This document shows, in pieces, positions 15,485 to 50,058 of a stretch of 64,000 bases of DNA. The notes under the pieces were generated by a model. That model was given only the letters and a program-made list of their open reading frames with translations. It did not search any database and was not told where the DNA came from. The DNA lies in contig NZ_CP108095.1 in the NCBI RefSeq assembly GCF_036194065.1, positions 434,001 through 498,000 on the forward strand, read 5' to 3'. This DNA is from Streptomyces sp. NBC_00239. GTDB lineage: Bacteria > Actinomycetota > Actinomycetes > Streptomycetales > Streptomycetaceae. The first letter of the stretch is position 1, and the number at the start of each line of letters is the position of its first letter. The position numbers and the translations under genes are program-made.

Positions 15485-16813
15485 TCACTTTCCGTCAGGC
15501 GCGAGGAGCGCGGCGGCGATATCGGCGGGAGTACCGGCTTCGAGTCTGAGCTGGTCGATCCAGGAGGCGGTGCTCGAATAATGTGCGCGGAACGGACGTC
15601 CGACCAGCAGAGGGTCGCGGGCCTGAAGCAGGCGGAGCTGGAAGTACGTGTCGCGTTCCGCGTGCTCGATTCCGTCCACGACCACTTTGCCCGCAGTGGC
15701 GGACATCACCGGTCCACGAACGGTGCGGGCGAGACCGGGGAGGTTGGCGTAGGCGTTCCGGAAGATGTCGAATGCCTGGGCGAGCGGGACCTTGAAGTAG
15801 TCGTGAGGGCCGGTGTCGCGTTCAACGAACAGGTAGTAGGGAACGACTCCGGCCGAAAGTTCGGCACGCCACAACTCGGCCCAGGTGCGGGCATCGTCAT
15901 TGACGTGAGCGATCAAGGGCGCCTGGCCGTAGACGAGCGCGCCGGTGGAGCGAATGCGGGCCAGAGCCCGGCGGACGAGGTCGGTTTCGAGTTCCCGGGG
16001 GTGGCTGAAGTGCGCCATCAGGGCGAGGTTCCGGCCGGAGGCCACGATGTCCTCGAAGAGGCGGAGCACGTCCTCGGCGTCCTTGTCGGTGGTGAAGCGC
16101 TGCGGCCAGTAGGCGAGGGACTTGGTGCCGATGCGAAGGGTGCGGATCGAGTCCACCCGCAGCATGGGCATGAGGTGGTCGCGCAGCCTGGCGGTGGACA
16201 TCACCATGGGGTCGCCACCGGTGACCAGGACATCGCCGACTTCCGGGTGCCGGCGAAGGTAGGCGATCAGCTGCTCGGGGCCGGGTGCGGCGAAACGCAG
16301 GTCGGCGTCTCCGACGAACTGAGCCCAGCGGAAGCAGTACGTGCAGTAGGCGTGACAGCTCTGGCCGTTCGCCGGGAAGTACAGGACGGTCTCCCGGTAC
16401 TTGTGCTGGACGCCGGCCAACGGTACGCCGTCGAGGTGGGGGACGTTCAGTTCCTTCTGCCCGGACGGGTGGGGGTTGAGCCGTGCCCGGATCCCCTGGA
16501 CGACACCGGCGATCCGGGATTTCGGCGCCCCTTCGTCGAGGAGGTTCGCCAGCTGCCGCTCGTCCTCGGCCGCGAGCATCCCGCGCTGCGGGAAGACCAT
16601 CTGGAAGATGGGGTCTCCTGGAACGTCCCGCCAGTCCACGAGGTGGGACAGCACGTAATCATTGACCCGGAACGGCAGCACCAGGGACAGTCTGCGCACG
16701 GTCTCCCGGATCTCATCGGAAAGTCCGAAACGAGCAGCTATCTCGTCGATCTGGCGTGGGCCACGGGCAAGGAACCTCGCCGACTGAACCGGTTCGAGTG
16801 CGGACGTCAGCAT
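15485..16813 (-). CDS. kamA: KamA-family radical SAM 2,3-aminomutase
   Basis: The product is 442 aa, the length of lysine 2,3-aminomutases. The cluster C153-x3-C157-x2-C160 (in QSCHAYCTYCFRW) binds the 4Fe-4S/SAM centre. K376 in SATAGKVVVDG is placed like the PLP lysine. D306 (AHVNDDA) and D333 (FVERDTG) fall where lysine aminomutase holds the substrate side-chain amine, which favours a basic substrate such as lysine over glutamate; this is an alignment by eye. It lies 178 bp downstream of dpgC on the same strand, and GGTGGAG precedes the ATG. It may supply beta-lysine or another beta-amino acid to the assembly line, but could be an unrelated neighbour. Confidence 0.8.
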   Translation of the reverse strand: MLTSALEPVQSARFLARGPRQIDEIAARFGLSDEIRETVRRLSLVLPFRVNDYVLSHLVDWRDVPGDPIFQMVFPQRGMLAAEDERQLANLLDEGAPKSRIAGVVQGIRARLNPHPSGQKELNVPHLDGVPLAGVQHKYRETVLYFPANGQSCHAYCTYCFRWAQFVGDADLRFAAPGPEQLIAYLRRHPEVGDVLVTGGDPMVMSTARLRDHLMPMLRVDSIRTLRIGTKSLAYWPQRFTTDKDAEDVLRLFEDIVASGRNLALMAHFSHPRELETDLVRRALARIRSTGALVYGQAPLIAHVNDDARTWAELWRAELSAGVVPYYLFVERDTGPHDYFKVPLAQAFDIFRNAYANLPGLARTVRGPVMSATAGKVVVDGIEHAERDTYFQLRLLQARDPLLVGRPFRAHYSSTASWIDQLRLEAGTPADIAAALLAPDGK

Positions 16814-16991: not shown

Positions 16992-20147
<3,156 letters not shown>

Positions 20148-20151
<4 letters not shown>

Positions 20152-21464
20152 TGTGCCGCCCGCCCGCTCTGTTCGGCGACGAAGGCCGCCAGCCGGTCCA
20201 GGCCGTCCTCGATCTCGTCGTGCGACAGATGGCTGAAGGACAGCCGTATCCGGCGGCGCGGCTCGTCATCGCCGTAGAAATGGTGCATCGGGGTGAAGAG
20301 CACCCGGTGGGTTCGGGCGCAGTGCTCCAGCAGACGGTCATCCGCTGCGAAGGGAAGGGTGAGGCACAGGAAGAAGCCCCCCGTGGGGGTGTTCCAGCGC
20401 ACCGGAGGGTCCGTGCCCGGGGGGAACCGGGCCGTGAGCCCGGCGAGCACCGCGTGCAGGTTCCCGCGGTACACCTCGGCTTCCCGGACGTTGGCGCGGC
20501 GCATGCTGCACCCGTGCTCCAGCAGCTTCCCGCCGATGACCGCCTGCGCGAGCGGGGAGGTGTTGACGCTCAGCACACTTTTGATCTTCGCCAGCTCGTC
20601 GGCCAGCACGGTCGTGCCGCCGTCCGGCCCCGCCACCCGCTGGTCGGCGACGGCGAACCCGACCCGTGCTCCCGGCACTCCGGACTTGGCGTAGGACCCC
20701 AGGTAGACGACGCTGCGCCGGCGGTCCAGCGCCTTCAGCGTCGGGAGCCGCTCCGCGTCGCCGTGGAAGATCCCGTACGGGTTGTCCTCCAGGAGCAGGA
20801 AGTCCAGTTCCGACGCCAGCCGCAGCAGGGTCCGCCGCGCCTCCAGGTCGAGGCTGACCCCGGTGGGGTTGGTGAAGTCGGGGGTCAGATAGCAGGCGCG
20901 CGGCCGCAGCCCACGGCCCCGGGCGCGCTCCACGACCGACCTCAGATCGTCGAAGTCGACACCGCCCGGGGCCGACTTGACCGGCAACAGCGCCATGTCG
21001 GCCAGCTGCGCGGCCCCGTAGGCACCGATGTAGGTGGGCGGTACGACGAGCAGGGCGTCCCGGTCCGTGCTGCGCAGGGCGCGCAGTGTGAGGTACAGGG
21101 CCTCCTGGCAGCCGACCGTGACCACGATGGATTCGGGGTCGACGGTGATGTCCTCGTCCACGAGGAGGTTCCGGGCGATCAGCTCGTGGATGATCCCCTT
21201 GGTCCTCCCGTACTGCAGGAGGGTGCGCAGGACGCGGGTCTCGTCGGATCCGGTCGTGGTCAGCAGGTGCTCGCGGTACGTCTCCAGGTGGCGGTGCACC
21301 GCGTCGAGGTCGAAGAAGCCCTCGTAGGGGCGCCCCGCCGCGAAGGAGATCGCATCGGGGTACCGGTGCGCGACCTCGTTGAGGAAGTTCATGGACTCGC
21401 TGATGGGCGACCGCAGGGAGCCGTGCAGCTCCGTCAGGTCCAGCTCTGCCGCGTCCGCTTTCAA
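20148..21464 (-). CDS. hpgT: HpgT, phenylglycine aminotransferase
   Basis: The product is 438 aa if translation begins at the TTG at 21464, which overlaps the previous stop as TTGA and restores the family N-terminus (ELHGSLRSPISESMNFLNEV). Fold type I PLP enzyme: FTNPTGVSL, LLLEDNPYG (D227, pyridine nitrogen) and GSYAKSG (K260, Schiff base). It converts 3,5-dihydroxyphenylglyoxylate to (S)-3,5-dihydroxyphenylglycine, usually with tyrosine as amino donor. No hydroxymandelate genes (HmaS, Hmo) are present, so it should serve Dpg only, not Hpg. Confidence 0.92.
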
Positions 21465-22684
21465 CGCCGGCCCCCCGACTCCGCCGTCGGTGTGCCCTGC
21501 GCGGGCGCTACCACGGGCGTCGCGCCGGCGAGTCGGCGTGCCAGGGCGGCCGCGGTACGGTCCTCGAACACCTCTTTGACCTCCATGGTGACGCCGTAGG
21601 TGGCGCGTACCCGGTTCGTCAGCCGGATCGCCAGCAGGGAGTTTCCGCCCAGCTCGAAGAAGTCCTGGTCGACGCCGATCTCGGGCAGGTCCAGGACCTC
21701 GGCGAACAGCCCGCACAGCAGTTCCTCTCCGGCGGTACGGGCCGCCCGGGGGGAGCCGGCGGCGGTCCCCTGGTAGTCGGGAGCCGGAAGCGCCGGGCGG
21801 TCGAGGGTGCCCTGCTCGGTCAGCGGGATGGTGTCGAGGAACACGAATGCCGACGGCACCATGTGGTCCGGCAGTTGACCGCTCAGATGGCTCCGCACGG
21901 CCGCCACGTCGAGCGTGGTGGTGTCGTCCGTGGGGACGAGGTAGCCGACCAGGGTGCGCTCCCCCGGGCGGTCCTCCCGCACGGCGACCACCGCCTGCTT
22001 CACGCCGGGCGTGGCCATCACGGTTGCCGCGACCTCGCAGGGCGCGATCGCGTGGCCGCCGATCTTCACCTTGCTGCGCCAGCGGCTGGGTCCCAGCGGG
22101 GGCCGGACCGGCTTGCCCACTCCGAGGAGCTGGGCCAGTTGCGCGACGGTGGGAGCCCGGGACAGCAGCTCGGGCCGCATGCCGGTGCGCAGCTCCGTCC
22201 CCAGTTCGGCCTGGATCCTCCGTACCAGCTCCGCCACCGAATCCGGGCTCCCGCCCAGGTCGAAGAAGTCGTGGTCGATGCCCACGGCCGGGCGGTGCAG
22301 CACCTCGGAGAACAGCGCGCACAGGGTCTGCTCGCCCGGTGTCCTCGCAGGACGGTTCGCGACCGCGGTGAAGTCGGGGGCGGGCAGCCGGTGACGGCAG
22401 AGCTTGCCGTTGGGGACGAGCGGGAAAGCCTCCATTTCCACCAGCGCGGACGGAACCGCGTACTCCGGCAGCCGGTCGCGGACGTACGTCTTCACCTCGA
22501 CCGGATCGACGGCCGCGCCGCGGTGCGGCACCAGGTAGCCGACCAGGCGGAGCTCTCCGCTCCGGGCCTCCCGGGCGTCCACGAAGGCCTGTCGTACTCC
22601 GGGCGCTCGGGTCAGCGCGGCCTCGACCGCGGCGGTATCGATGCGGAACCCGCGGATCTTCACCTTGTCCTCCCTCTGTTTCAT
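21461..22684 (-). CDS. stand-alone Asub-PCP-Asub-PCP protein lacking any adenylation core
   Basis: The product is 407 aa. It contains only the small C-terminal subdomain of NRPS adenylation domains plus carrier domains, twice: Asub1 (about 6-105), PCP1 (115-190), Asub2 (204-302), PCP2 (315-390). Each Asub begins exactly at the A8 hinge ([10 protein letters not shown] and KVKIGGHAI). Asub1 keeps the A10 lysine (PNGKL, K94); Asub2 has Thr in its place (EQGTL). PCP1 reads LGGSPDSV, with Pro where the phosphopantetheine Ser should be; PCP2 is canonical (LGGNSLLA, S349). The large Acore with ATP and amino-acid sites is absent. Its ATG overlaps the stop of the carrier-less NRPS (ATGA), so it probably supplies that enzyme with a carrier in trans. 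Confidence 0.85.
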
Positions 22685-25600
22685 GTGCCGGGCCGACCGC
22701 GCCGGTTGCGACCGGCGGCGGTGCGGATGCGATGGATCAGTCGGCCGGGTGCCGACGTGGGGGCGGGTGTCGGCTCGGGGCCGTCACCGATCGGGGCCGG
22801 CCGCGCGGGGCCCTGCGGTGGCAGCCTGTCCGGGGCCGGGGGCAGCGCGGCCCGGTCGAGTTTGCCGTTGGCGGTCAGCGGGAGTGCGTCGAGCACGACC
22901 AGCGCCGACGGCACCATGTACGCGGGCAGTCGGCCGGTCAGGCCGCGCGCCACCGCGGCCGTGTCCGGCGCCGGGTCGCCCTGCGGAACGATGTAGCCGA
23001 TCAGCCGCTTGTTCCCGTGGCGGTCCTCGCTGACGGTCACGGTGGCCTCGCGCACACCCGGTGCGTCGGCCAGGGCGGCCTCCACCTCACCGATCTCGAT
23101 GCGGTATCCGCTGATCTTGACCTGGTCGTCCATCCTGCCGAGAAAGACCAGTTCGCCCTCGTGCGACCAGCGCACCAGGTCACCGGTGCGGTACATGCGC
23201 TCGCCCGGTTTGCCGAAGGGGTTCGCGACGAACCGCTCGGCCGTCAGGTCGCTGCGGCCGCGGTAGCCGCGGGCCGTGCCCGCACCGGCGACGCACAGTT
23301 CCCCCGCCACGCCCGGTGGCACCGGTCGCCGCCATGCGTCGACGACGTACAGGCGGGTGTCGTCCAACGGGCGGCCGAGCGGCACCGTCGAGCCGATCCG
23401 GTCCCCGGCCCGCCAGGGTCGTTGGGTGACGCACAGCGTCATCTCGGTCGGACCGTACGTGGTTCTGACCACGGTCTCCGGGCAGGCGTCGAGCACGCGT
23501 GAGACGGAGGCGGGAGAGATCACGTCCCCGCCCGTGGTCACCTCCGCCAGGCCCCGGAACGCCTCCGGGGCGTCCTCCGCGATCACCCGGAACAGGCCGG
23601 CGGTCAGGCTCAGCCGGGTGATGCCGTGCTGCTCGACGAGGTCCTGCAGGCGGGCGGCGTTCAGCCCGCCGGGCGGGGCGACCACCACGCGGCCGCCTGC
23701 CAGCAGGGGCGCCCAGATCTCGTAGGTGGAGCCGTCGAAGGCGTGCGGAGCCTGGAACAGGATCCGGTCGGTGCGGTCCACCTCCCAGCACGGGTCGAGC
23801 GCCAGGCCCACCACGTCCTCGTGGGTGATCTCGATCCCCTTCGGCACTCCGGTCGACCCGGACGTGTACATCACATAGGCGAGGTCCCCGGGGCGCACGG
23901 CGGGCCGGGCGGCCGGCTCCCCGGCCTCCGCCCGGGCACCGGTCGGGCCGGGCTCGACCAGAACGATGCGCCGGCCGGCCCGCTCCTGCTCGGCCACGAG
24001 GTCGTGTCCGGCCAGCGCCCGGTCGACGAGCAGGACCTCGGGCGTGCTCTGCGCGAGGGTGAGCGCCAGATGGGCGGGAGGGTGTGCGGTGTGCAGCGGC
24101 AGGTACGCGCCTCCTGCCTTGAGCACCCCCAGGAAGGCGGCCACGACGTCCGTCGAGCGCTCCATCAGGATCGGCACCACCGAACCGGGGCCCACTCCGG
24201 CACCGGCGAGGACGTCGGCCAACCGGTCGGCGTACGCGTCCAGTTGCCGGTACGTCAGCGCCGTGTCGGCTGCTTCGACCGCGATCTCGTCGGGGCGCGC
24301 GGCGACCTGCCGGGCGAACACGGAGACCACGGTGCCCGGCACGGTGGCGGCGACGGTCTCGTTCCAGTCCACGAGGACGTGCCGACGCTCTTCGGGCGAC
24401 AGGAGGTCGAACTCGCCGACCCGCCGGTGCTCTTCGGCCACGGCCTGCTCCAGCACGCGGATCACCCGCTCCCCCAGCGCACGGGCCGTGTCCTGGTCGA
24501 ACAGGTCGACGGCGTAGCGCACCAGCAGGCTCAGACCGCCCGCGTCGTCCCCGTCCGACGGCTGGTCGTCGACCTGGAATCCCAGGTCCACCTTGGCCAC
24601 CTGGGAGCGGGTGGGTGTGGGAGTGCACCGCAGGCCCGGCAGACCGAGGTCGCCTCCGCTGTCCCCCGCCCAGGACAGCACGACCTGGAACAGCGGATTG
24701 CGGGACAGCGTACGTACCGGCCGGAGGGCTTCCACCAGGCGGTCGAACGGGAGGTCCGCGTGGTCGTAGGCGGCCAGGTTGGTGTCCCGGATCCTGGCGA
24801 GCAGCTCGGTGAAGGCCGGGTCGCCCGATGTATCGGCGCGCAGGACCAGGGTGTTGGAGAAGTAGCCGACCAGATCGCGCAGTGACTCGTCGGCGCGTCC
24901 CGCGGCGACGGTGCCCAGCGGGAGGTCCGTGCCGGCGCCCAGCCGCGTCAGCGTCACCGCGATTGCGGCCTGCACCACCATGAACGCGGTGGCGCCGTGC
25001 CGCCGCGCCAGTTCCCGCATGCCCTGGTGCGTGGCGGCGGTGATCGCGAGTTCGAGTGCGTCGCCGCGGTGCGAGGCGCGGTCCGGACGGGGCCGGTCGG
25101 CGGGCAGGTTGAGCTCGTCGGGGCTGCCCGCCAAGGTCTCGCGCCAGTAGGCGAGTTGGCGTGCGGCCTCGCTGTCGGGTTCCGATTCCTCGCCCAGCAG
25201 TTCCCGCTGCCACAGCGTGTAGTCCCCGTACTGCACCGGCAGCGGCTCCCAGTCGGGAGCCCGGCCCTCGCGGCGCGCGGCGTAGGCCTGGGACAGGTCG
25301 CGGTGGAGCGGCCGTATGGACGAACCGTCCATGGCGATGTGGTGCACGACCATCACCAGCGTGTAGGTGTCGGCTCCGTACTCGATGAGGTGCCACCGGA
25401 TGGGGACGTCCCGGGCCAGCCGGAAGGGACGGCCGCTCTCGGCGGCCACCACGGCGGCCACCTCGTCGGGGGCGCAGCGGGTGACCCGCACGTCCGCTCC
25501 CGCTTCCTCGGGGGACAGGACGCGTTGCACCGGCTCGCCGTCGTGCTCGTCGAACACCGTGCGCAGGCTTTCGTGGCGGGCGACGAGATCGCGCGCCGCC

Positions 25601-28600
25601 GCACGGAGGGCCGCCTGGTCGAGTTCGCCCTCGATCCGGGTGACCATGGGGTCGTTCCAGACCGCGCCGGCGCCTTCGAGCTGGTCCAGGAACCACAGGC
25701 GCCACTGCCCCGGTGACAGCGGCAGGTGCTCGGGGCGGGGGGTGAACGGCTTGAGCTCGGGGCGCTTGCGGACGGTTCCGTCTCCCAGCCGTCCGGCCAG
25801 GGCCGCCACGGTGGTCGCTTCGAACAGCGCCCGCACGTCGACCTCGGCGTCCAGTACGGTCCTGATGCGGTTGATCAGGCGCATGGCGAGCAGCGAGTGA
25901 CCGCCCAGCGCGAAGAAGTCGTCGTCGATTCCCACGTCGGGCAGGCCGAGGGTCTCGGCGAACAGCCCTTGCAGGATCTGCTCCCGCGTGGTCCTCGCCC
26001 CTCGCCCGCCCGTCGGTCGCGGTGCCGGGGCGGAGGGCTCGGGCAGCGCGGCCCGGTCCAGCTTGCCGTTGGCCGTCAGCGGCAGCGCCTCGACCACCGT
26101 CAGGACCGTGGGGACCATGTAGCCCGGCAGCCGGGCGGCGACATGGCGTCGTACGTCGGCGACATCGGGTGCGGCGCCGGGCTGGGGTACGAGGTAGCCC
26201 GCCAGCCGCCGGTCTCCGGGACCGGCGTCCCATACCGTGACCGCGGCCTGGCGGACGCCGGGCGCCCCGGCCAGGGCCGCCTCGACCTCGCCCGTCTCCA
26301 CACGGAATCCACGGATCTTGATCTGCTGGTCGTTGCGCGCGAGGTATTCGAGCCGGCCGTCTCCGCGGGTGCGGACGATGTCGCCGGTCCGGTACATCGT
26401 GCGATCCGGGCCCAGGAGGTCGGGACGGCCGCGGGGGCCGGGGACGAACCGCTCCTCGGTGAGTTCGGGCCTGCCGAGGTATCCGGCGGTGACCCCGGCA
26501 CCCATGATGTACAGCTCTCCCGGCACGCCGACCGGTGTCCGGCGCCCGTACCGGTCGAGAACCCTCACGGCGGTTCCGGCGATGGGGCGCCCGATGGTGA
26601 CGGCACCGTCCGGGTCGAGGACATCGGTGGTGGACCAGACGGTCGTCTCGGTCGGTCCGTACATGTTCCGCAGTTCCGCGCCGGTGTGCCGGGCCAGCTC
26701 CCGTACCAGTTCGGCGTCCAGCGGCTCGCCTCCGAGCAGGATGCGGCGCAGCGACCGCAGGGCCCCGGGGGCGGGTTCGTCGAGCAGGGTGCGCGCTCGC
26801 GAGGGGGTGCACTGGAGGTGGGTGATCCCGTGGGTGTCGATCAGGCTCGTCAGCGGGGTCTCGAAGGTGCTCGGGGCAGTGGTCGCGGCGGGGGTGGTGA
26901 CGGGATGCCGCCCGGCGGCGCGGCGCAGTTCGTCCAGCCGGGACAGCCCGGTGAGGGCGGCCTCGGCGGGGATCCCGAAGTCCAGCAGGCAGGCGATCTC
27001 GTCCACGCCCATCGCGCCGAGCCGTCGCACCAGGGGCAGGCACTGGTCGACGGTGCCGATCAGCGAGCCCTCGCCCAGATAGCGGGAGCAGGCGTGGTCG
27101 AGCAGGGCCTCCTCGTCCTCGGGGGTGAAATCGGCGGCCTTGACGTCCATGCCGAGCCCGCGGGCCAGGTTCGCGATCAGCCCGACCGAAGACCGCAGGT
27201 AGGCGCGGAACGGCTGCCACGCGACCGCGCGCACGTCGTCCGCGTCGGCCCCCACGTAGGTGTGCAGCATCACGGTGACGTGCGGGTCACCCGGGTGCCC
27301 GGCCTGCTTCCAGGCCGCCCGGTACTCTGCGATCCGCTGCGCGAGCGTGTCCGTGTCCTGGCCGAGCAGATGGGTCAGCAGTCCTGCCCCGGCCTCACCG
27401 GCCCGTCGGCAGGTGTCCGGGCTGCCGGAGGACGTGAGCCAGTACGGCAGTTCGGCCTGGACGGGAGTGGGCAGCACCGCGGTGTCCAGGACGCGGCCGC
27501 CGGGCGCTTCGAACGCGACCTTCTCGCCGCGCCACAGCCTGCGCACCTGGTCCAGGCCCTCCAGGGTGCGGGCCTGGCGGTCGTCGTAGGCGTCCTTCGC
27601 CAGGACGAAGTCGTCGACGTGCCAGCCTGAGGCGAAGGAGAGCCCGACCCGGCCCGCGGAGAGGTTGTCGACCACCGCCCATTCCTCGGCGACGCGCACC
27701 GGGTGGTGCAGGGGCATGACCACGCTGCCGGCCCTGATCCCGATCCGCTCGGTGACCTGGGCGACAGCCGCGGCGAGGACCGAGGGGGCGGGATAGGAAC
27801 CGCCGAAGGCGTGGAAGTGCCGCTCGGGGAGCCAGACGGCGCTGAAGTCATGGGTGTCGGCGAACCGCGCGCCGTCCATCAGCAGCCGGTACCTGTCGGG
27901 CCCGGCCGCCGTTTCGGCCGTGTCACTGGCGAAGTAGAAGAGGCTGAAGTCCGGTGCCGCGGACGGCTCCCCGGTGTGCGTCGGGGCGGCGCCGCCGTCC
28001 GGGCCGAGTACGACGCGGTGTCCCCTGCTCAGGGTCCACAGCAGTTCGAGTACCGAGATGTCGAAGGACGTACTGGTCACGGCGAGCCAGCTGGTGCGCT
28101 CCCCGTCGTCGCCGACCGTCTCGTCCATCGCGGCCAGGAAGGCGGTGAGGTTGCGGCGCCTGACCACCACGCCCTTGGGTTCTCCGGTGGACCCCGACGT
28201 GTGGATCACGTAGGCGGCGCTCTCGGGATCGGGCGCCGCCGGTTCGACCGGTCCGGCGCGGCCGTCACGCTCCGGGGCCGCGTCCAGGTCCAGTTGGGGT
28301 ACGTCGCCGGCGACGACGCCCTGGGTGGCGGCGTGCGTCACCACGACGGCGGGGGCCGCGTCGTCGATCACGTACTGGATGCGGGCGGCCGGATAGTCCG
28401 GATCCAGTGGCAGGTAGGCCGCTCCGGCCCGCAGGACCGCGAGCATGGCGGCGGGGAGTTCGGCTCCCCGCCGCAGGCACAGTCCCACCCGGTCCCCCGG
28501 TCCCACTCCTGCCGCGCGCAGCTGCCGCAGCACCCGGTCCACCAGTCGGTCCAGCTCGCGGTAGGTCAGCACCGGGCGCTCGGCGCCGTCCACGGTGATC

Positions 28601-30198
28601 AGCGCTTCGTCGTCCGGACGGTTGCGTACGGTCGCGGCGAACGTCTCCACGATGTCCGCCGCGTCGGCGGGGAGCGGCGGCCCTTCGCCGGCGGCGTCGA
28701 TCGCGTCGCGCTCCGCGTCGGTGAGCGCGAGCAGCTCGGACAGGGGGAGGCCGGGGTCGGCCGTCCCCCTGCGCAGGACGCGGACCAGGGTGTCGGTGAA
28801 GCCCCGCACGGTCGCCTCGTCGAAGAGGTCGCCGCTGTACTCGCAGATTCCCTCGGTGGTCGCGCCGTGCAGCCCGAGTTCCAGACCGAGGTCGGTGCGG
28901 CAGGTTCCGTTGTCGAGGTCGACCGGCTCGACCGTCAGGCCGGTCAGCGAGAACGCGTGCGCGGGGACGTTGCGGTAGCCGAACTGCACTTGGTAGAGCG
29001 GGTCGTGGCTGAGGTCGCGCTCGGGCTGCAGTTCGCGGACGATGCGCTCGAAGGGCACCTGGGCATGCGCCAGGGCGCCCAGCGCGCCCTCCCGTACCCG
29101 TGCGATCAGGTCTCCGAACGCGGGGTTGCCCGACAGGTCCGTGCGCAGCACCACGCTGTTGACGAACATGCCGACGAGCGGCTCCAGTTCGGGCCTGTCG
29201 CGGCCGGCCGTGGGCACGCCGACGACCACGTCCTCCTGTCCGGAGTGGCGCATCAGCACGGCCTGCCAGGCCGCCAGGGTCACCATGAAGGGGGTGGCCC
29301 GTGCCGCCCGGGCGGTCTCCTCGACCGCTGCGGTGAGCGCCTCGTCGAGGGTGAAGCGCACCTGTCCGCCGCGGTACGAGCGCACGGGCGGCCGCGGGCG
29401 GTCCGTCGCCAGGTCCAGCAGGCCCGGTGCGCCGTCCAGTTGCCGACGCCAGTAGGCCAGTGAGGCCGACAGCGACTCGTCGTCGGTGCGGTCGCGCTGC
29501 CAGGCGGCCCAGTCCGCGTACTGGAGGGCGAGCGGCTCGGGTGCCGGGTGCAGGCCGGGATGCGGACGGTAGAACGCGCACAGATCGTCCACCAGGACGC
29601 TCCTGGACCAGGCGTCGCCCACCATGTGGTGGTTCACCACCACGAGCAGCGCGCGCCGGGGGCCCGAGCGGATCAGCAGGGCGCGGAACAGCGGGCCCCG
29701 CTCCAGGTCGAAAGGGGCGGCGGCCTCATGGCGGGCGAGTTCCCGCTCGGCGTCGTCGAGGCCGCCTGCCGGGTCTTCGTCCAGTTCCACGATCCGCAGG
29801 ACCGAAGCGGCGGGTTCCAGAACCCTCTGCACGGGGGTCTGGCCGGCCATGGCGACCACGGTGCGCAGCGCCTCATGGCGGACCGTCAGTTCACGCAGGG
29901 CCGTGTCCAGTGCGGCCACGTCGAGCGGTCCGGTCAGGCTCAGCGCCACGTACTCGTTGTACATGGCGTGGCCGGGCGCCAGCTGTTCCAGGAACCACAG
30001 CCGTTCCTGGCCCGGGGACAGCGGGGCGGGCGCGTCCCGGTCGCGCGGTGGCACCGGCGCCCCGGGCTCGCGGCCGGCGCTGCCGCGACCGCCGACGCGT
30101 TCCTCGAAGAGGGCGCGCTGCCGGGGGCTCAGCCGGGCCAGCCGGTCGTTTCGGTCCTGCCGGCCGCTGCCGGGCGGCCGGTCCGGTGTGGCGCTCAC
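22681..30198 (-). CDS. NRPS, C-A[MOx]-T-C-A, ending without a carrier domain
   Basis: The product is 2505 aa from a GTG overlapping the PKS stop. C1 (60-490; [10 protein letters not shown], with A instead of G after the Asp). A1 is split: A1-A4 at 515-730, a luciferase-like FMN monooxygenase at about 751-1090, then A5-A10 at 1110-1395. T1 has S1435 (LGGHSLLA). C2 (1493-1940; HHIAMDG). A2 (1965-2460) keeps A10 (NGKLDR), then a 45-residue Pro/Arg tail ends the protein with no carrier. Pocket residues: A1 D-I-L-Q-L-G-M-V-W, a glycine code; A2 D-G-Y-L-T-G-T-L-C, close to the Dpg code of glycopeptide synthetases (six of nine). It should add an oxidised glycine and then Dpg. No thioesterase or epimerase. 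Confidence 0.9.
26929..27948 (-). other. MupA/Atu3671-type FMN monooxygenase domain inside an A domain
   Basis: This marks about residues 751-1090 of the NRPS. It starts [20 protein letters not shown] and contains [48 protein letters not shown] and [19 protein letters not shown], the flavin-binding beta-barrel pattern of bacterial luciferase-like enzymes found embedded in NRPS/PKS proteins. It sits after A4 (FDISVLEL) and before A5 (NMYGPTETT). Known relatives in myxobacterial systems hydroxylate glycine at the alpha carbon, which leads to amide formation. Whether this one does is inference. Confidence 0.88.
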
Positions 30199-33100
30199 TG
30201 GCCCTCCAGTTCGGTGAGGATCAACTCTTCGACTTCCAGGGCGAGGTCCGCGACGCGTCCGCCCTCGAAGAACAGCCGGGCGGGCACCTCGACGTCGAAC
30301 TCGGTGCGCAGCCTGGCCACGACCCTGGCGGCGAGCAGCGAATGCCCGCCGAGTTCCAGGAAGTCGTCGGTGACGCCGACCCGTTCCAGGCCGAGCAGTT
30401 CGGCGTAGACCGCGGCCAGGCGCTCCTCGGTCGCGGTGCGTGGAGCGACGTACTCCGTGGCCAGTTCGGGCCTCGGCTGGAGGGCCGAGGGACGCGGTGC
30501 CAGGGCCGGCGTGAAGGCGACCGTTCCGTCCGGGCCCGTGCCGGTCCCGGCGCGGGCCACGACGGCCCGGCCCCCAGGCCCTTCGACGAGCGCGGTGAAG
30601 GCGCGCGCACCCTGCTCGGGGCTCAGGGCGCCGGCGATCATGGTCTGCTGGAAGTCCCGCAGGTCGGCGGGGACTTGTGCCCTGCTGGCCATGCCGACCC
30701 GGGCCCACATGTCCCAGTCCACGGCGACGGCGTGGCGCTCGCCGCGGGTGTTCTCCGCCTCCGCCACGGCCACGAGATAAGAGTTGGCGGCCGTGTAGTC
30801 GGCCTGACCGTAGGTGGGCACGAGGGTGGCCAGGGAGGAGCACAGGACGAGGAGCCCGGCCTCGCCCGGCCGCAGCTCGGCGAGCAGATGGCGCACTCCT
30901 GCCGTCTTGGGGGCGAGGACGGCGCGCATCTCGTCGTCGCTACGCAGTTCGACGGAGCCCCCGCCGGGGATCCCGGCGCAGTGGACGACACCGTCGATGG
31001 ACCCGAAGCGGTCGCGGGCGGCGTCGAGTGCCCGGGCCAGCTCGCTGCGGTCGGTGACGTCCGCCCGAACGGTGAGGACTTCGGTTCCGGAGGCCCGCAG
31101 TTCGCGCAGGGCGGCTGCCGACCCGTCGCCCTCGTCGGGTGTTGCCCGGCGGCCGACGAGCACGAGCCGGGCGTCGCAGGTCCGCGCCAGCTGACCGGCG
31201 AGGACGAGTCCGATCCCGCCGAGCCCGCCGGTGATCAGATACGTTCCGCCGCGGCGCAGCCGGGAGGGGGTGGCGGGCACCGGGCGGTCCACGGGCTCGA
31301 CCGCGCGGCCGAGCCACTGCCCCTCGCGCAGGGCCATCAGCCGGGCGGGGGCGGTGAGCACCGTGCGCACCAGGTCCGCGGCGCGGGTCTCGTCGGGGAT
31401 CTCGCCTGGCGCCAGGTCGAGCTGGGTGCAGTGGAGATTCGGATACTCCTCGGGCAGCACCTGCACGGGTCCGCTCATGAGGGCGGCCGCGGGGTCGGGC
31501 CGTTCGCCGGGCCCGGTGCGGAACGCGCCGGCGGTGAGGACGCCGAGCCGGACCTCGTGGACGACGCTTTCGGCGGCCATGGCGCGGGCGAGCCGGATGA
31601 GCCCGAAGTACCCTTCGGTCTCGTCCGCCCCTACGGGGCCCAGGCCCCAGGCGTGCAGGACCGCGGTGGGGGTGCGCACCAGCGACCGCAGCTCCGCCAG
31701 GAGCTTGGTGTACTGGGCCTGATCGGTGGGGTCGATCTCGTACACACCGCGTCGGACCCGTCGGTAGCCGGTGCCGGGCCGCACGACGGTGACGATCTGA
31801 CCGCGGCTGGTGAGCAGGTCGGCGAGCGGCTGGGCCAGCCCTTGCCGGTCGAGCAGGACGAGCCAGGTCCACCGGCGGCCGTCGAGGGGGTCGGCGCCGT
31901 CGTCGACGCGCAGCGGGCGCCAGGCGACCTGTGCGTGGGCCGCCTCGGCCTGCGCGGGGACCACCGCCTCGGCCTGCGCGGGGACCACCGCCTCGGCCTG
32001 CGCGGGGGCCGCCTCGGCCTGTGCGAGGGCTGCGGTGGGGGCGGCGGGCCCGCCCGACGGATACGGCTCGATCCAGTGCGGTCGGCGCTCGAACGGGTAG
32101 CCGGGCAGGCCGGTCACCCGGGCGTCGGTGCCGAGCGGTTCCCAGCGGACGTCGACCCCGCGGGTCCACAGGTCCGCCAGCGAGAGCACGGCGGCGCGGG
32201 CCTCGTCCCGGTCCGATCGCCGGCCGCGCGACGGCAGCGGGGGCCGGGCGGTCCGGGGCCGCGCGGAGCCGCTGTCGCCGGCCCCTCTGACCAGGTCGGT
32301 GAGGACGCCGCCCGGACCGCTCTCCACGAGGACCAGGTCGTCGTCCAGCGACGTCATGCGGTGCACGCCGTCGTGGAAGCGGACCGGGGCCCTCATCTGC
32401 CGCACCCAGTAGCCGGGGTCGGTTGCCTGTTCGTCGGTGATCCAGTCTCCGGTCAGGTTGGAGACGAAGGGCGTCCGGGGCGAGCGCAGGGTGAGACCGG
32501 AGAACTGGTCGGCGAACCGCTCGGCGGCGCCCTCGCACAGGGCGCTGTGGAACGCACGGTCGACCGGCAGCCGCACCGGCCGCAGCCCGTTCCCGGCGAG
32601 TGCAGCCGTCGCCCGGTCCACCGCCTGCTCCGTACCGGACAGCACCGTCGCCCGCGGCCCGTTGACGGCGGCGAGGTCGAGCCCGTACCGCTCCGCGGCC
32701 TCCAGGGCGTCCGATTCCGTCAGCGACACCGCGAACATGGCCCCGGGCCCGGTCTGTTCCAGCAGTCGGCCCCGGGCGGACGTCAGGGCCAGTGCGTCGG
32801 GGAGTTCGAGTACGCCGGAGAGCAGCGCCGCGGTGTACTCGCCCAGGCTGTGCCCGAGCAGGGCCCGCGGCCGTACGCCCCAGTGCTCCCACAGGCGGCT
32901 CAGGGCCCAGCTGACGGCCACCACCGCGGGCTGGGTGACGGACGTACGGCGCAGTACGTCCGCGCTACCGGCGCGCAGCAGTTCGACCAGGTTGTGGCCG
33001 AGGTCGGGCGTCAGCAGGCGGGCGCACTCGTCGAGGGCGGCCCTGAACACCGGATGGTCGCGGTGCAGCCCGACCGCCATGGTGGGGAACTGCGCGCCCT

Positions 33101-34775
33101 GCCCCGGCAGCATGAAGCCGACGGGTGCGTCGTCCCGGGCGGTGGTCGCCTCCACCGTGGTGTGCCGGCCCGCCGCGCGGAGCGCCTCGGCGGCCTCGGC
33201 GGTGTCGCCGGCCACGACGACGCGGCGGCGGCGCAGTTGCCTGCGTCCCGTGCGCAGGGTGCGGGCGATGTCGTCGATCCGCTGCCCCGGGTGGGCGGTC
33301 AGGTGGTCCGAGAGCCGGACCGCCAGGGTGCCCAGGGCGGTTTCGGTACGAGCGGAGAGCGGCAGCGCCACCGGCAGGACGGGGGCGTGCGCGGCGGCGC
33401 GGGGAGCGGGGTCGGGGGCCTGTTCGAGGATGACGTGGGCATTGGTGCCGCCGATGCCGAACGAGCTGACCGCGGCGCGCCGGGGCCCTTCGGCGGGCGG
33501 CCATTCGGCGAGTCCTTCGGGGACGAAGAACGGGCTCCCGTCCAGGCCTGATCCGGAGTGGGTTCGGACCGGGTGCGGAGACGCCGGAATCCGCCGGTGC
33601 CGGAGCATCAGCACCGTCTTGATCAGACCGGTGACCCCGGCCGCCGCGTCCAGGTGGCCGATGTGCGCCTTGGCCGACCCCAGCGCGCACCAGGCCCGCT
33701 CGTCCTCGCCGGTCGCGGCCGCACCGTAGACGGCGGTGAGTGCGGCCGTCTCGATGGGGTCGCCGATGGGAGTGCCGGTGCCATGGGCCTCGACGTACCC
33801 GATGGACCGCGGGCTCACCCCCGCCATCGACAGCGCCTCGCGGATGACCGCGGTCTGTCCCGCGACTCCCGGTGCCGTGTAACCGGCCCTTGCGGCACCG
33901 TCGTTGTTGATCGCGGAGCCGAGCAGCACGGCGTGCACCCGGTCGCCGTCGGCGAGGGCGTCGGAGAGCCGTTTGAGGACGACGACGCCCGCCCCGTTGC
34001 TGAAGACCGTGCCGTTGGCGTCGGCCGAGAAGGGCCTGCAGTGCCCGTCGGGCGACTCGATGCCGCTCGCGGCGGGCAGGTAGCCCGAGCGGTGGGGCAC
34101 GGTGACCGAGACTCCCCCGGCCAGAGCCAGGTCGCACTCCTGCGACAGGAGGCTCTGCGCTGCCAGGTGGACGGCGACGAGCGAAGTGGAGCAGGCGGTC
34201 TGCACGTTCACCGCGGGGCCGCGCAGGTTGAACTTGTACGCGACCCGGGGCGCGAGCCCGTCCGGAGCATTGCCCTGGAAGATCAGCGGGACGCCGAGCG
34301 AGGCCTTCAGATCGGTGCGGGGCAGCAGATTGTGGATCAGATACGTGCTGAGCATGGAGCCCGCGAAGACCGCGGCGGATCCGGTGAACCGCTCCGGATC
34401 ACACCCGGCGTCCTCCAGCGCTGCCCAGGCGCTCTCCAGGAAGATCCGCTGCTGCGGATCGATGACGGAGGCCTCGAGTCCGCTGTAGCCGAACAGCTGG
34501 GAGTCGAATCCGGCGATGTCGTCGAGAATGCCCTTCACCGGTACGTAGCCCGGCTGCGCCGCCTCCGCGTCGGGCACACCGGACGCGCGCAGTTCCTCCG
34601 GTGTGAACCGGCTCAGCGCCTCGCGGCCGGAGACGAGCAGGTCCCACAGCTCGTCCGGTGACTCCGCTCCGGGAAATCGCCCGGCCATGCCGATGATCGC
34701 GATGCGGCCGTCCGGTTCGTCCGGGCCGTCCGTGCCGTCCGGGCCGGTCTGGTGTGCGTTCAAGATCCGCTCCAT
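30195..34775 (-). CDS. type I PKS module KS-AT-KR-ACP
   Basis: The product is 1526 aa. KS (24-450): C195 in QTACSTS, H331 in EAHGTGT, H374 in [12 protein letters not shown] (550-850): PGQGAQ, S643 in GHSLGEY and AFHS at 741-744, which predicts malonyl-CoA. A repetitive Ala/Gln/Glu linker lies at 915-948. KR (about 1175-1400): T1182-GGLGGIG, S1313/S1314, Y1327 and N1331, all catalytic residues present. ACP (1450-1515): S1479 in LGGHSLL. No DH, ER or methyltransferase. The module should add one malonate unit and reduce the ketone to a hydroxyl, giving a beta-hydroxy (statine-like) extension of the peptide. Its stop overlaps the next NRPS start. It begins 12 bp after the hydroxylase gene. Confidence 0.94.
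31941..32030 (-). repeat. 24-bp tandem repeat coding the AT-KR linker
   Basis: Two perfect 24-bp units (31941-31964 and 31965-31988) are followed by two decayed ones. They encode repeated A-Q-A-E-A-V-V-P octapeptides between the AT and KR of the PKS. The unit is a multiple of three, so copy changes keep the frame and only change linker length. Confidence 0.85.
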
Positions 34776-34787
34776 GGTGGTGGGCTG

Positions 34788-35525
34788 TCAGACGGCCATC
34801 AGGTAGCGCTGGAAGCGGGGCATCAGGATCTCCAGGGCTTCGATCTCGACGGGTGTCAGCTCCGGGTGCCAGATGTCCCAGAGCAGGACCGCTCGCTGGT
34901 CGCTGCCGCGGTTCCACGCCTCGTGGATGAAGCTGTCGTCGAAGAGGATCACCTTGCCCTCCTGCCAGCCGCGTTCCTCGTCGCCGACCTTGATCCGGCA
35001 TCCCGGCGGAACGACCAGGGGCAGGTGCGCGGTGAGCAGAAGGTTGACGCCGCCGGTGTGCGGGGTGATGTGGACGCCGGGATTGAGCACGGTGAACATG
35101 GCGTCCCGCGGGCCGTGCGGGGTGAGGTCCAGGGCGCGCCGAGTGGCGGGGCAGCGCTCGCGGGCCTCCTCGCGCCAGGCACCGTTGCGGTAGAGCTGGT
35201 ACGTGTCCCAGCCCTGCCAGCCGAGTTCCTTCGTGTAGTGGTCCTCGAACGGAGCGAACGCGGCCCGCTCGGCGCGCAGCGCCAGGAACTCCTCCCGGAT
35301 GCGCGGATAGGCCTGCTCCATCTCGGCCACCCAGGCCAGGTCGGCGGTGTCGTGCCAGGGCAGCGCGCTGATGCCGGGGAAGAACAGCCGGGTGGGTTCC
35401 TGGTCGTCGTGCAGATACTGCGGGGCCCGCTGCCCGACGAGGATGCGCAGGCATTCCTCGACGCGCTCCAGGCCGTCGGCGTCGAGCGTCCGTCGCAGCT
35501 CCGCCAGCACCTCATCGATATCCAC
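34788..35525 (-). CDS. aspartyl/asparaginyl beta-hydroxylase family enzyme
   Basis: The product is 245 aa from the GTG at 35525 (MDIDEVLAELRRTLDADGLE), with GAGGAAG 8 nt ahead; it starts 1 nt after the NRPS stop. Residues 145-215 carry the AspH/LpxO double-stranded beta-helix: NPGVHITPHTGGVNLLLTAH (H152, H156), then ILFDDSFIHEAWN (H201) and R211, matching iron and 2-oxoglutarate ligands. Related enzymes in NRPS clusters hydroxylate the beta carbon of Asp, Arg or similar residues, often on the carrier protein. Its place between the first NRPS and the PKS suggests it acts on the residue loaded by the second NRPS module. The substrate is not proven. Confidence 0.88.
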   Translation of the reverse strand: MDIDEVLAELRRTLDADGLERVEECLRILVGQRAPQYLHDDQEPTRLFFPGISALPWHDTADLAWVAEMEQAYPRIREEFLALRAERAAFAPFEDHYTKELGWQGWDTYQLYRNGAWREEARERCPATRRALDLTPHGPRDAMFTVLNPGVHITPHTGGVNLLLTAHLPLVVPPGCRIKVGDEERGWQEGKVILFDDSFIHEAWNRGSDQRAVLLWDIWHPELTPVEIEALEILMPRFQRYLMAV

Positions 35526-35526
35526 G

Positions 35527-38500
35527 TCAGGAACTTCCTCTCGGTACTCGGGTCGGTGCGTCCGTGTCCCGTGCGGTTTCCGCCCGGGTGTCTGCGTCGT
35601 CGTCGACCGGGCCGCGGGCCCGGCGGCGGGCCGCGGCCCGGCCCCGGACGGCGGCCCGCCGCCGACTTCCGCGCTCCTCGGTGGTGTCCGTGTCCATCCG
35701 GTCGGCGGCGACCGGGACGAGTCCCCCGGCGAACTCCGCGACGGTCGGGCGGGCAAAGAGGTCCACCAGCGGGATCTCCCGTCCCAGCACACGGCTCAGT
35801 TCCAGCTGAAGCTGAGCCGCGCGCAGCGAATCACCGCCCGCCTCGAAGAAGTTGGTGTGCCGTCCGACCGGGCCGCCGCCCAGGACCTGGCGCCACGCGT
35901 CGGCGACGAGCTGCTCCACGCCCGCCAGCGGCGAGGCGGTCGCGGCCGCCGGCGGTGCGGGCAGCGGAAGCCGGGTCCGGTCGCGTTTGTTGGTGCGCGT
36001 CCGGGGCAGGGCGTCCAGCAGCATCACGGTGTCGGGGACGGCCGGGGCGGGCAGCCGCGCGGCGAGGTGGTCGCGCAGCTGCGCGCCGTCGACACCGGGG
36101 GCCACGACGGCGTATCCGACGAGTCTCTGGACGCCGCCGACGTGGTGCACGGTCGCGGCGGCCTCGCGGACCGACGGGTGGCTTTCGAGAACGGCCTCGA
36201 TGCCTTCCAGCTCGACCCGGTTGCCCCGGATCTTGACCTGGCTGCCCAGCCTTCCGACGAAGCCGAGCTGCCCGTCGGGCAGATGGCAGCCGAGGTCGCC
36301 GGTGCGGTACAGCTTCCCCTCCGGCTCCCACGGGTCGGGAACGTAGGCGCGGGCGCTCTCCTGCGGCCTCCGGTGGTAGGAACCGGCCAGGAAGTCGCTG
36401 CGCAGCAGGATTTCCCCCGGTACACCGACCGGGCACGGCCTGCCCCGGTGGTCCAGGACCAGTACCTCCCGCCCCGGGATCGGCACTCCGACGGGCACCG
36501 ACGACGGGAAGGTCTCCTCGGGCAGCAGCTCGCGGTACGTGGCGATCACGCATTCGGTGGGACCGTACAGATTGTGCAGTCGGGGCCGGTCGGGGCGGTG
36601 CGCCCACGCCTCGACGAGCCGCACGGGAACGGCCTCTCCCGCGAGTTGCACATGCTCCAGATCGGGCAGGTGCGCCCCGGTCGCCTCCAGTGCCTCGGTG
36701 ATCAGCTGGAAGAAGGCCGGGACCGTGCCGAGCCGGGTGATCCGCTCCGTCCGCAGCCATGCGGCCACCGCCAGTGGGTCGCGCCGCCGGTCCTCGGGCA
36801 CCACGCACAGCGTCGCCCCGGCGCACAGCGCCGCAAACATGTCGGAGTAGGCGGCGTCGTAGGTGAAGGGGGCCCACTGGGCGATGCGGCCGCCCGGCCG
36901 GATGCCGTAGTACTCCCTTTCCCAGTCCGCCAGTTGGGAGAAGGTCGCATGCGGCAGCACGATGCCCTTGGGGGTGCCGGTGGACCCCGAGGTGTACACC
37001 AGGCACAGCGGGTCGGCGCCGCTGACGGCGGCCGGGGTCGGGGGCGGACCCGTGGGGGGCGCGCCGGGGCAGTCCGGCTCCACGACCTCGACCGGCACAC
37101 CGGCGAAGCGCCGGCCGGCCGGGTCCCACAGACCGGGATGCGCGGTCAGCGCCGCCTCCTCCGCGAGCAGGCAGAGCGGATCGGCGTCCGCGAGCAGTTC
37201 GGTCAGCCGGTGGTCCGGGTCGCCGGGGGCCAGGACGCAGAAGGCCGCCCCCGCCTTGGCCACGCCCAGCGCCGCGGCGACCTGCACCGGACCGGTGTGC
37301 ACCAGGACCGAGACGAACCGTCCGGGAGCTGCGCCCAGCGCTCCGAGCCGGCCCGCGATGCGATCGCTCCAGTCGTCGAGGCTCCCGTAGCCGACCGCGA
37401 CACCTTCGTGGCGGACGGCCACGGCGTCCCTGTTCTCCGCGGCGCGCCGCCGGAACACCTCGTGCACGGGCAGGGAGTGGTCGCGGCGCGCCTCACCGCG
37501 CCGCCGCACCGGGCGGGGCGACGGCTGTACGTCATCCGTCAGATCGACCGTGTCCAGGGACCGGTCGGGGTCGTCGAGGGCGGCTCGCAGCAGGGTGAAC
37601 AGGTGGGTGAGGACGCGGGCGGCCGACGCCGGGCCGAACCGGGTGCCGCTGTACTCCAGGCGTCCGTCCAGCCGGCCGGCGTGCTCGTCCAGGGAGAGAG
37701 CGATGTCGTATTTCGCCGCCCCCGGGCTCAGCGGACGCAGTCGCCCCGATGCGCCGCCCAGCCCGAGTTCACCGGGCGGTGCGTCCTGGAGCGTCAGCGT
37801 CGCCTGGACCAGCGGAGTCCGGGCCGATGAGCGGTCCAGGCGCAGCCGGGACACCAGGTGGTCCAGGGGAACGAGCGCGTGGTCCAGGTCACGGGCGAGT
37901 ACGCCGGCGGTCCTGGCTGCCAGCCCGGCGAAGGTCGCGGAGCCGGACAGGTCGATCCGCACCGGCAGCATGTTGACCAACGAACCGACGACGGTGTCGA
38001 GTTCGGGCCGGTCGCGGTTGGCGACCGGCACTCCCACCACCACGTCGTCGGTCCCGGCGTACCGCCCCAGCAGCGATCCGAACACGGTGAGCAGGACCGT
38101 GAAGGGGGTGGTCCGCAGGTCCACGGCCGTCTGGCGCAGCCGGGCGGTGAGCTCCTCGGGTACGGCGACCGGCAGGGTCCCGTCCTCGCCCCCCACGACG
38201 CCCGCGGCGTCGCTGGGCAACTGCAGCACCCCCGAGCAGCCGTCGAGCCGATCGGCCCAGTAGGCGAGCTGGTCCGTCCGCACCGCCTCTCCGCGGGGCC
38301 CGGCGGCCTCGGCCGCGTACCGCGAGAATCCGGATCGGATGCGCGGCGGCGGTTCGGCGGCTCCGGTCCGATGCGCGTACAGGGCGCCGAGGTCGCGCAG
38401 GACCACGCCCGCGGACCATCCGTCCAGTGCGATGTGGTGCGCGCTGAGCAGCAGGTGCCAGCCCCGGTCGCGGGTCCGCACCACGGTCGCGCGCATCAGC

Positions 38501-42156: not shown

Positions 42157-42660
42157 TCTGCGGATTCCCCTACTTTCAGCAGACGCCGTAGAAAAACGAG
42201 AACAAGAGAACGCTCTGGGTGGATCACCAAAGCGGGCTTGCCAGACCACACGCAACTGACATTCAGCCCGCTGAATGAACCGCACACCGGCAGCAATTGA
42301 TCACGCTATCAAGATCGCGTCATTCGGCTATAGGGTTATTTTCAGACACCAGTGAATGATCCCGTCCACTACGCGATCCGGCTCCCCCGCAGCCCAGTTC
42401 ACGTGCGCCTATGCATTTCGGATTACCGGCTCTCCGACGGCACACACCCCCGCAGTGGACGAAGATTTATGGCCGATACAAGACGTTTAACCACCACGCA
42501 TCACGCGTTTTTGACGTGATCGACAATTAACGTGAAGCCCGGTTGACCCTTGACCATGACTGCCAGAAACTGATGGCTTCGGATACCCGTGAGTCGATCC
42601 GACTTCCCATTCACATACATGAACGGTCCTTGATCCACACACACGGAAGGCCTTCCTGCT
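42157..42660. promoter_or_regulatory. divergent promoter region of the cluster
   Basis: This 504-bp gap is much richer in AT than its surroundings and lies between the divergent NRPS and halogenase genes. It must hold the promoters of the main operon and of the halogenase. Visible elements: the palindrome at 42260-42277; a dyad ATCACG...CGTGAT at 42500-42520 beside TTGACG; and a self-complementary GGAAGGCCTTCC (42645-42656) covering the likely halogenase ribosome site, which could hide it. No small gene is seen. Confidence 0.65.
42260..42277. promoter_or_regulatory. 18-bp palindrome, candidate operator
   Basis: CATTCAGC-CC-GCTGAATG has perfect 8-bp arms with a 2-bp centre. It is about 105 bp upstream of the first NRPS start, a usual place for an operator. 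No regulator gene is present in the window, so its protein is unknown. Confidence 0.5.
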
Positions 42661-49305: not shown

Positions 49306-50058
49306 TCAGCGGTTCCCTTCCGGGGCGCCGTGCTCGTCGCCGGCGTCCGGCAGGAGGCGGATGAGGGCGGCGACGGCCGCTTCGGCGGTGGCGGCGGGGG
49401 TGTGGGCGGAGGCGGGTTGCCGCGGGTCGCCGACGAGCCAGCCGTGTTCGCCGTGCGGGTTGGCCCGGGGGAAGTGGTGGGGGTGGGGAGGGAGGGGGGT
49501 GTCGCTGAAGGTGAGGGAGCCGTGGGAGACGAGCGGGTAGAGGGCGCGCAGGCGGGGGGCCGCGTACACCGCTTCGATGAGGTTCCTGTCGATCGTGTGG
49601 TCGGGCAGCGAGCGGACCTCCTGCCACCGGTAGGAGAGGGCTCGGCCCTGTTCCAGTGCCAGGGCGAAGGGCGCGACGGCGAGGGCGGGCCACCGGCGGG
49701 CCATGTCCTCGAGCGGCAGGTGCCGGTGCCAGGCGTCGAGCAGGGCGACGGTGTCGTGGAGGGTGGGGTTCGCGGCCGTGGCGGCGTCGCCGATCCAGGG
49801 CCTGGTGAAGCGGACCCGGATGGCGTGCTGTTGGCGTTCGAATTCGACGACGCAGGTTCCGCGGTCGCTGTCCACGGCTACGGAGAGCGGGTCCTGTGCG
49901 GCGTCCCAGTGTCCCCAGGGGCGGGTGGGGGCGAGGGTGACGCCTTCGGCGGCGGCGATGCGGTCGAGGCCGACGAGGGGGTCGCCGGCGTCGGGCGCGA
50001 GTTCCGGGTAGGTGCGGGGGTCCAGTGCGGCGCTGGGGGCGGCGGGCTCGGGGTGCAT
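49306..50058 (-). CDS. conserved hypothetical protein, possible immunity partner
   Basis: The product is 250 aa (ATG 50058) with no signal peptide or membrane segment, so it is cytoplasmic. Conserved-looking patches are VAVDSDRGTCVVEFERQQHA, LLDAWHRHLPLEDMARRWPA and LRALYPLVSHGSLTFSDTPL. I have a weak impression of the DUF6193 family. It begins 124 bp downstream of the giant toxin-like gene on the same strand, the place where immunity genes of polymorphic toxins usually lie. That role is inference only. Confidence 0.55.
   Translation of the reverse strand: MHPEPAAPSAALDPRTYPELAPDAGDPLVGLDRIAAAEGVTLAPTRPWGHWDAAQDPLSVAVDSDRGTCVVEFERQQHAIRVRFTRPWIGDAATAANPTLHDTVALLDAWHRHLPLEDMARRWPALAVAPFALALEQGRALSYRWQEVRSLPDHTIDRNLIEAVYAAPRLRALYPLVSHGSLTFSDTPLPPHPHHFPRANPHGEHGWLVGDPRQPASAHTPAATAEAAVAALIRLLPDAGDEHGAPEGNR

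Follow-up and report, generated by a model that had tools for sequence, protein, structure and literature searches.

A core-less Asub-PCP-Asub-PCP protein encoded beside an NRPS that lacks its last carrier: a candidate detached carrier subunit in Streptomyces and Kitasatospora

Stand-alone (type II) PCPs are separate proteins that bring a carrier to an A domain, and the X domain of glycopeptide NRPSs is a dead domain that recruits P450s. CmnI of capreomycin is described as a C-T protein loaded in trans by the A domain of another module (PMC12400406), PchE as containing an interrupted A domain with an inserted epimerase domain (PMC8807600), and the adenylation core and Asub as meeting at the hinge where A8 begins (PMC11253843). 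A stand-alone Asub-PCP protein is not mentioned in the accessible part of this last source, a review on adenylation domains from 2024, and no such protein was found in print, the literature cover being thin and the absence weakly tested. Here such a protein, referred to as protein X, is described from a stretch of 64,000 nucleotides of Streptomyces DNA, the whole of which is called the window.

Layout, start codon and family of protein X

The gene for protein X lies on the minus strand (21461..22663, or up to 22684 with a non-conserved ATG; Pfam, homologues and start comparison). Pfam reported two AMP-binding_C (PF13193) and two PP-binding (PF00550) matches and no adenylation core (PF00501), bearing out the Asub-PCP-Asub-PCP layout without a core that a first-pass annotation had read from the letters; with PF00501 absent, X is not a complete C-A-T module. 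On the minus strand, the protein runs from Asub1 (22373..22663; Pfam, residue count and model), with A10 Lys and A8 Arg439 kept, through psiPCP1 (22121..22345; Pfam and residue count), with the carrier Ser replaced (Pro here), a linker (22073..22120; alignment) and psiAsub2 (21776..22072; residue count and model), without A10 Lys and A8 Arg436/Arg439, to PCP2 (21524..21736; Pfam, carrier scan and residue count), a normal carrier with Ser. Both copies, Asub1-psiPCP1 (copy 1) and psiAsub2-PCP2 (copy 2), begin at A8.

The start originally read from an ATGA overlap with the NRPS2 stop, an ATG at 22684 that would give 407 residues, is probably wrong, as S. cellulosae has CTG at this codon. Each of the four DNA sequences has, 21 nt downstream, a GTG that follows AGGGAGG or GGAGGA, and in both Kitasatospora genomes it is this conserved GTG that overlaps the NRPS2 stop (GTGA). 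Because the GTG is present in 4/4 sequences and the ATG is not conserved, translation probably begins at 22663 (M-KIRG), inside A8 and just behind the hinge Asp, with a start that may derive from the GTG codon of QVKIRG. The recorded starts of the four named homologues are MKIRG or MRIRG.

The X family is real and rare. A protein search with X gave 3591 matching proteins among 7993 scored candidates, and among the best 120 of these matches five covered at least 93% of the query (402-887 bits), the sixth covering 43% (221 bits). The five members are P0007, which is the window's own X or a near-identical protein, and proteins from S. cellulosae (80%), Streptomyces sp. NPDC046727 (70%), Kitasatospora aureofaciens (54%) and Kitasatospora sp. 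NBC_00374 (55%). The layout was the same in all five of these protein clusters from Streptomyces and Kitasatospora, and X was also contained in four S. cellulosae plasmid records. Full-length matches were present in three of 394 genomes drawn from the family, the window's own included, in the window's own alone among 392 genomes of the genus, and in two of 70 genomes of the genus of genome G222, the same two as in the family draw; the family and genus draws overlap. A contig scan with motifs common to NRPSs gave 79 loci, with matches of at most ~0.71 kb, half the gene. The suggested search for tandem Asub-PCP proteins without a core, and for their neighbourhoods, gave, among the best 120 matches, five proteins sharing one layout and one syntenic gene cluster.

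A wider class of proteins starting at A8 was considered and rejected: among 17 half-length matches fetched, one (P0125) begins at A8 and the rest further upstream. P0065 and P0077 also begin at A8 in the alignment, and as the relatives of P0077 sit in open frames of 1374 and 1346 aa (two that are 95% identical) and 501 aa (a third at 76%), P0077 seems to be a full module cut short by gene calling.

The complementary differences first noticed between the copies were confirmed, and the losses of the carrier Ser in copy 1 and of the A10 Lys in copy 2 recur in all five homologues. In the window, copy 1 keeps the A10 Lys (PNGKLCR) but has LGGSP where carriers have LGGxS, whereas copy 2 has GTLDR, without the A10 Lys, and a normal carrier LGGNS. 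Against a background of 115 ordinary homologous didomains, the carrier Ser was found in 115/115 background didomains, 0/5 of copy 1 (P, P, E, E, A) and 5/5 of copy 2; the A10 Lys in 115/115, 4/5 (Arg in one) and 0/5; and the A8 Arg439 (GrsA numbering) in 115/115, 5/5 and 0/5, respectively. Copy 1 also shows Cys or Ser for the Asp two places past the A10 Lys (5/5) and loss of the first Glu of the A8 motif (4/5), and one of the five homologues has Arg instead of both Lys of copy 1. Since the whole background keeps all three residues, and the losses and the layout are common to all five family members, the pattern is more than chance.

Gene cluster and carrier count

X follows NRPS2 (22681..30147, minus strand, start provisional; ORF, Pfam and carrier scan), a C3-A3-T3-C4-A4 protein with a luciferase-like insert in A3 and no last carrier; the insert, a luciferase-like monooxygenase domain by Pfam, lies inside the A3 adenylation core (27001-27948, minus strand). 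Also on the minus strand are NRPS1 (C-A-T-C-A-T, 35527..42285, start provisional), a gene for an Asp/Asn beta-hydroxylase-like (AspH-like) protein (34788..35792) and a PKS (KS-AT-KR-ACP, 30195..34775), all by Pfam, and, as the next gene after X, an aminotransferase class I/II gene (20148..21434; Pfam and synteny), for which no NCBIfam model exceeded its cut-off among those listed for the window. This is followed on the same strand by genes for DpgA, the 3,5-dihydroxyphenylacetyl-CoA synthase (19048..20151), DpgB (18326..19036) and DpgC (16992..18359), and for a lysine-2,3-aminomutase-like (KamA family) protein (15485..16813; below curated cut-offs). As DpgA, DpgB and DpgC exceed curated cut-offs, 3,5-dihydroxyphenylglycine is an expected building block of the assembly line. 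A halogenase-like FAD protein is encoded on the plus strand (42661..44097; CmlS model match, below its cut-off), and an asparagine-synthase-like gene lies at the cluster edge (44295-45827, minus strand; above the TIGR01536 cut-off). No thioesterase domain was reported in the scanned NRPS and PKS proteins, and for this reason the asparagine-synthase-like protein might act in release or amidation. Resormycin is a chlorinated resorcinol peptide; it was considered as the product and set aside, as no evidence supported this identity.

The order NRPS1, AspH-like, PKS, NRPS2, X, aminotransferase, DpgA, DpgB, DpgC is the same in the window, S. cellulosae (75-88% identity) and G222 (52-76%), and the stretch from genome G248 runs from NRPS2 to DpgC. 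The halogenase-like, asparagine-synthase-like, GNAT and KamA-like genes are also present in S. cellulosae, and the halogenase-like gene in G222 (71%); the matches listed for the Kitasatospora stretches included neither a KamA-like nor an asparagine-synthase-like gene. In S. cellulosae the whole cluster is carried on linear plasmids of ~0.44-0.46 Mb (the two records opened are linear), and it may for that reason be mobile between strains; the contig that carries it in the window's genome is 8.5 Mb long. In two of the S. cellulosae plasmids, L106 (CP109198.1) and L107 (CP109195.1), NRPS1 is split into two frames, and in L107 NRPS2 is split into three, both being single frames in the window; these splits are either sequencing errors or real breaks. 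Elsewhere in the window, a protein of 1413 aa whose C-terminus matches Ntox27, bacterial toxin 27 (50183-54424, minus strand), adjoins a DUF6193 gene (49306-50058), a pair that looks like a polymorphic toxin locus, and a DUF4246 protein with two strong Pfam matches is encoded at 4956-6461 (minus strand).

NRPS2 ends C-A without a carrier in all four loci compared (window, S. cellulosae, G248 and G222), as the first-pass annotation had stated for the window. The loaders of the window cluster are four A domains and one AT (Pfam), and a scan of all frames of at least 50 aa gave six carriers (T1, T2, ACP, T3, psiPCP1 and PCP2), the same six as in S. cellulosae and G222. Ser is present in five of the six in the window, psiPCP1 being the exception, and no spare Ser-bearing carrier other than PCP2 was found in these frames. 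With five loaders to five Ser-bearing carriers, PCP2 is the one carrier left for A4. PCP2 also has features expected of a trans-acting carrier: its Ser is kept in 5/5 homologues, it is encoded by a separate gene in 4/4 DNA sequences, and the A domain at the end of NRPS2 in the window is without a carrier of its own. As NRPS2 lacks a last carrier and PCP2 is the only spare one with Ser, PCP2 very probably serves module 4, and architecture and carrier count suggest that A4 loads it in trans.

It had been proposed that X donates either a carrier or an Asub lid in trans. The carrier count gives good support to the former. The lid is not supported, as A4 has its own Asub and copy 2 lost both the A10 Lys and the A8 Arg439 in 5/5 homologues. 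The Asub of A4 carries the A10 Lys and Arg439 in 4/4 loci (the Arg436 position is Ser in the window), and an Asub stands behind every one of the four A cores. The A4 pocket stretches (25 protein letters) are identical in the four loci and end in TLC, which we take to resemble, weakly, the dihydroxyphenylglycine code; the A4 substrate is perhaps, speculatively, 3,5-dihydroxyphenylglycine. Behind a variable Pro/Ala-rich stretch (A4 with tail: 22684..24330, minus strand; locus comparison), the NRPS2 tail keeps RIR[TS] in 4/4 loci and is a candidate docking element, with no docking family reported by Pfam in NRPS2 or X. A predicted structure of A4 with this tail, built from three sequences, was too poor to use (mean pLDDT 47.6).

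Origin and possible role of the other three domains

In a 137-row tree, copy 1 (5), copy 2 (5), A3-T3 (4) and the A4 Asub (4) fell into one group (support 97/95), which also took in one background row, P0049; copies 1 and 2 each formed one group (100/97) and the A4 group was weak (74/70), in a short alignment with unsettled bootstrap, a background of matches to X and A4 rows without a carrier. Because the copies group with A3-T3 and the A4 Asub, both half modules seem to derive from their own assembly line, before the Streptomyces/Kitasatospora split. The linker that joins the two halves, of 18 protein letters, resembles PCP-to-C linkers (ARPPLRxxxRP), as if cut before the C domain, and passes directly into A8. 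As a PCP-to-C-like linker joins straight to A8, the C domain and A core seem to have been lost as one block, in support of the domain-level excision proposed at first reading. An alternative reading takes the linker for a remnant of the A7 region (RWR); on this reading, too, the C domain is gone, together with almost all of the core. X appears to be a clean example of domains lost within a single assembly line, and its five homologues allow comparison.

In the predicted structure of X (mean pLDDT 85.4, pTM 0.45), all four domains are folded but the two halves are joined floppily, residues 186-194 scoring below 50. The model matched structures of NRPSs, DhbF and SrfA-C among them, over ~180 columns. 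By NG86, dN/dS in the close pairs (window/S. cellulosae and the two Kitasatospora, respectively) was 0.31 and 0.24 for the whole of X, 0.34 and 0.30 for Asub1, 0.34 and 0.31 for psiPCP1, 0.27 and 0.22 for psiAsub2, and 0.22 and 0.20 for PCP2. Two distant pairs gave 0.56 and 0.51 for the whole of X, and psiPCP1 reached 0.82 in one distant pair. NRPS2 controls gave 0.16-0.20 in five stretches of the window/S. cellulosae pair and 0.27 in the single Kitasatospora control. X is therefore under constraint, but weaker than that on NRPS2. Conservation of psiPCP1 was uneven along its length: the helix behind the carrier site was invariant at 5/15 positions in psiPCP1 and 11/15 in PCP2, and the part before it (helix I and loop) at 18/31 and 15/31, respectively. 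The difference between these two parts shows that psiPCP1 has retained its fold more than its carrier face. In the linker, 10/16 residues were invariant in the five homologues.

It is about an even chance, in our judgement, that X serves the fourth NRPS module as its detached carrier subunit, with its other three domains forming a structural adaptor. C4-A4 of NRPS2 would activate an amino acid, perhaps 3,5-dihydroxyphenylglycine, and A4 would load it in trans onto PCP2, which would join the last condensation and then hold the chain. Asub1, psiPCP1 and psiAsub2 would do no chemistry; as remnants of two modules from this line, they would keep PCP2 close to NRPS2, possibly through a grip on its tail, a docking role that is speculative. 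Of the roles considered for these three domains, we favour the adaptor, with moderate confidence. Counted for this reading as a whole were the layout in 5/5, the synteny, the missing NRPS2 carrier, the match of five loaders to five Ser carriers and the complementary losses, as well as the dN/dS of 0.24-0.31, helix I and loop of psiPCP1, the four folded domains, the linker (10/16) and RIR[TS] (4/4); counted against it were the constraint below that of NRPS2, the 0.82 of psiPCP1 in one distant pair, its uneven conservation and the floppy joint. More tentatively, and with somewhat less than even confidence, the dead half-module (Asub1-psiPCP1-psiAsub2) is proposed to be a dedicated adaptor replacing docking domains, whereby a carrier-less A domain loads the carrier of another chain and X constitutes a portable cassette. 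If an adaptor is indeed what these domains form, losing the C domain together with the A core, at the A8 hinge, would have made a portable carrier cassette, and this hinge would be a natural cut point, providing the natural split of a module into A domain and carrier that assembly-line engineers seek. X would also predict the carrier of the last building block in a product that probably contains dihydroxyphenylglycine.

Rather unlikely, yet the strongest competitor, is that PCP2 is the module 4 carrier and the three other domains are leftovers kept passively for folding and for PCP2 solubility. The weaker constraint on X, the lost carrier face of psiPCP1 and the Arg at both Asub1 Lys positions in one homologue fit such a tether, but four domains have been kept with open frames since before the Streptomyces/Kitasatospora split, and the linker and psiPCP1 helix I are well conserved. 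That the dead domains recruit an enzyme for tailoring or release (halogenase, hydroxylase or asparagine-synthase-like) to the PCP2-bound chain is improbable: genes for all three types lie in the cluster, and X adjoins the dihydroxyphenylglycine genes, but no partner is known and nothing in the sequence indicates one. We give very little credence to Asub1 serving A4, or any other A domain, as a trans-acting lid; its A10 Lys (4/5) and A8 Arg439 (5/5) would suit this role, but A4's own Asub has both residues in 4/4 loci, and Asub1 shows Arg for both Lys in one homologue and Cys or Ser for the Asp after the A10 Lys in 5/5. Assembly collapse with missing DNA or decay, named in the first-pass annotation as what would refute its reading, would fit partial domains that adjoin one another but can practically be dismissed. 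The layout recurs in five protein clusters, and likewise in four plasmid records of S. cellulosae and in two genomes of Kitasatospora; the frames are open in the DNA sequences compared and under purifying selection, with dN/dS well under 1 in close pairs rather than broken frames or values near 1.

Comparison with known systems

Like the type II PCPs, X offers an A domain a carrier on a separate protein, but it has three further NRPS half domains, of which psiPCP1 and psiAsub2 are without key residues in 5/5 homologues. If the other three domains do serve as an adaptor or in recruitment, X would also resemble the glycopeptide X domain in retaining dead NRPS parts for the sake of protein contacts, although the latter is C-type and protein X offers a dead Asub and PCP without a known partner. 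X and CmnI are alike in placing the carrier on one protein and the A domain presumed (for X) to load it on another, X differing in having no C domain, two Asubs and a second, dead carrier (PMC12400406). In interrupted A domains, as described for PchE, the A domain hinge and Asub region are likewise naturally rearranged, but there by insertion into a whole A domain, whereas in X the core is gone (PMC8807600). Loading of a carrier by another protein's A domain is already known; what would be new here is the core-less Asub-PCP-Asub-PCP subunit.
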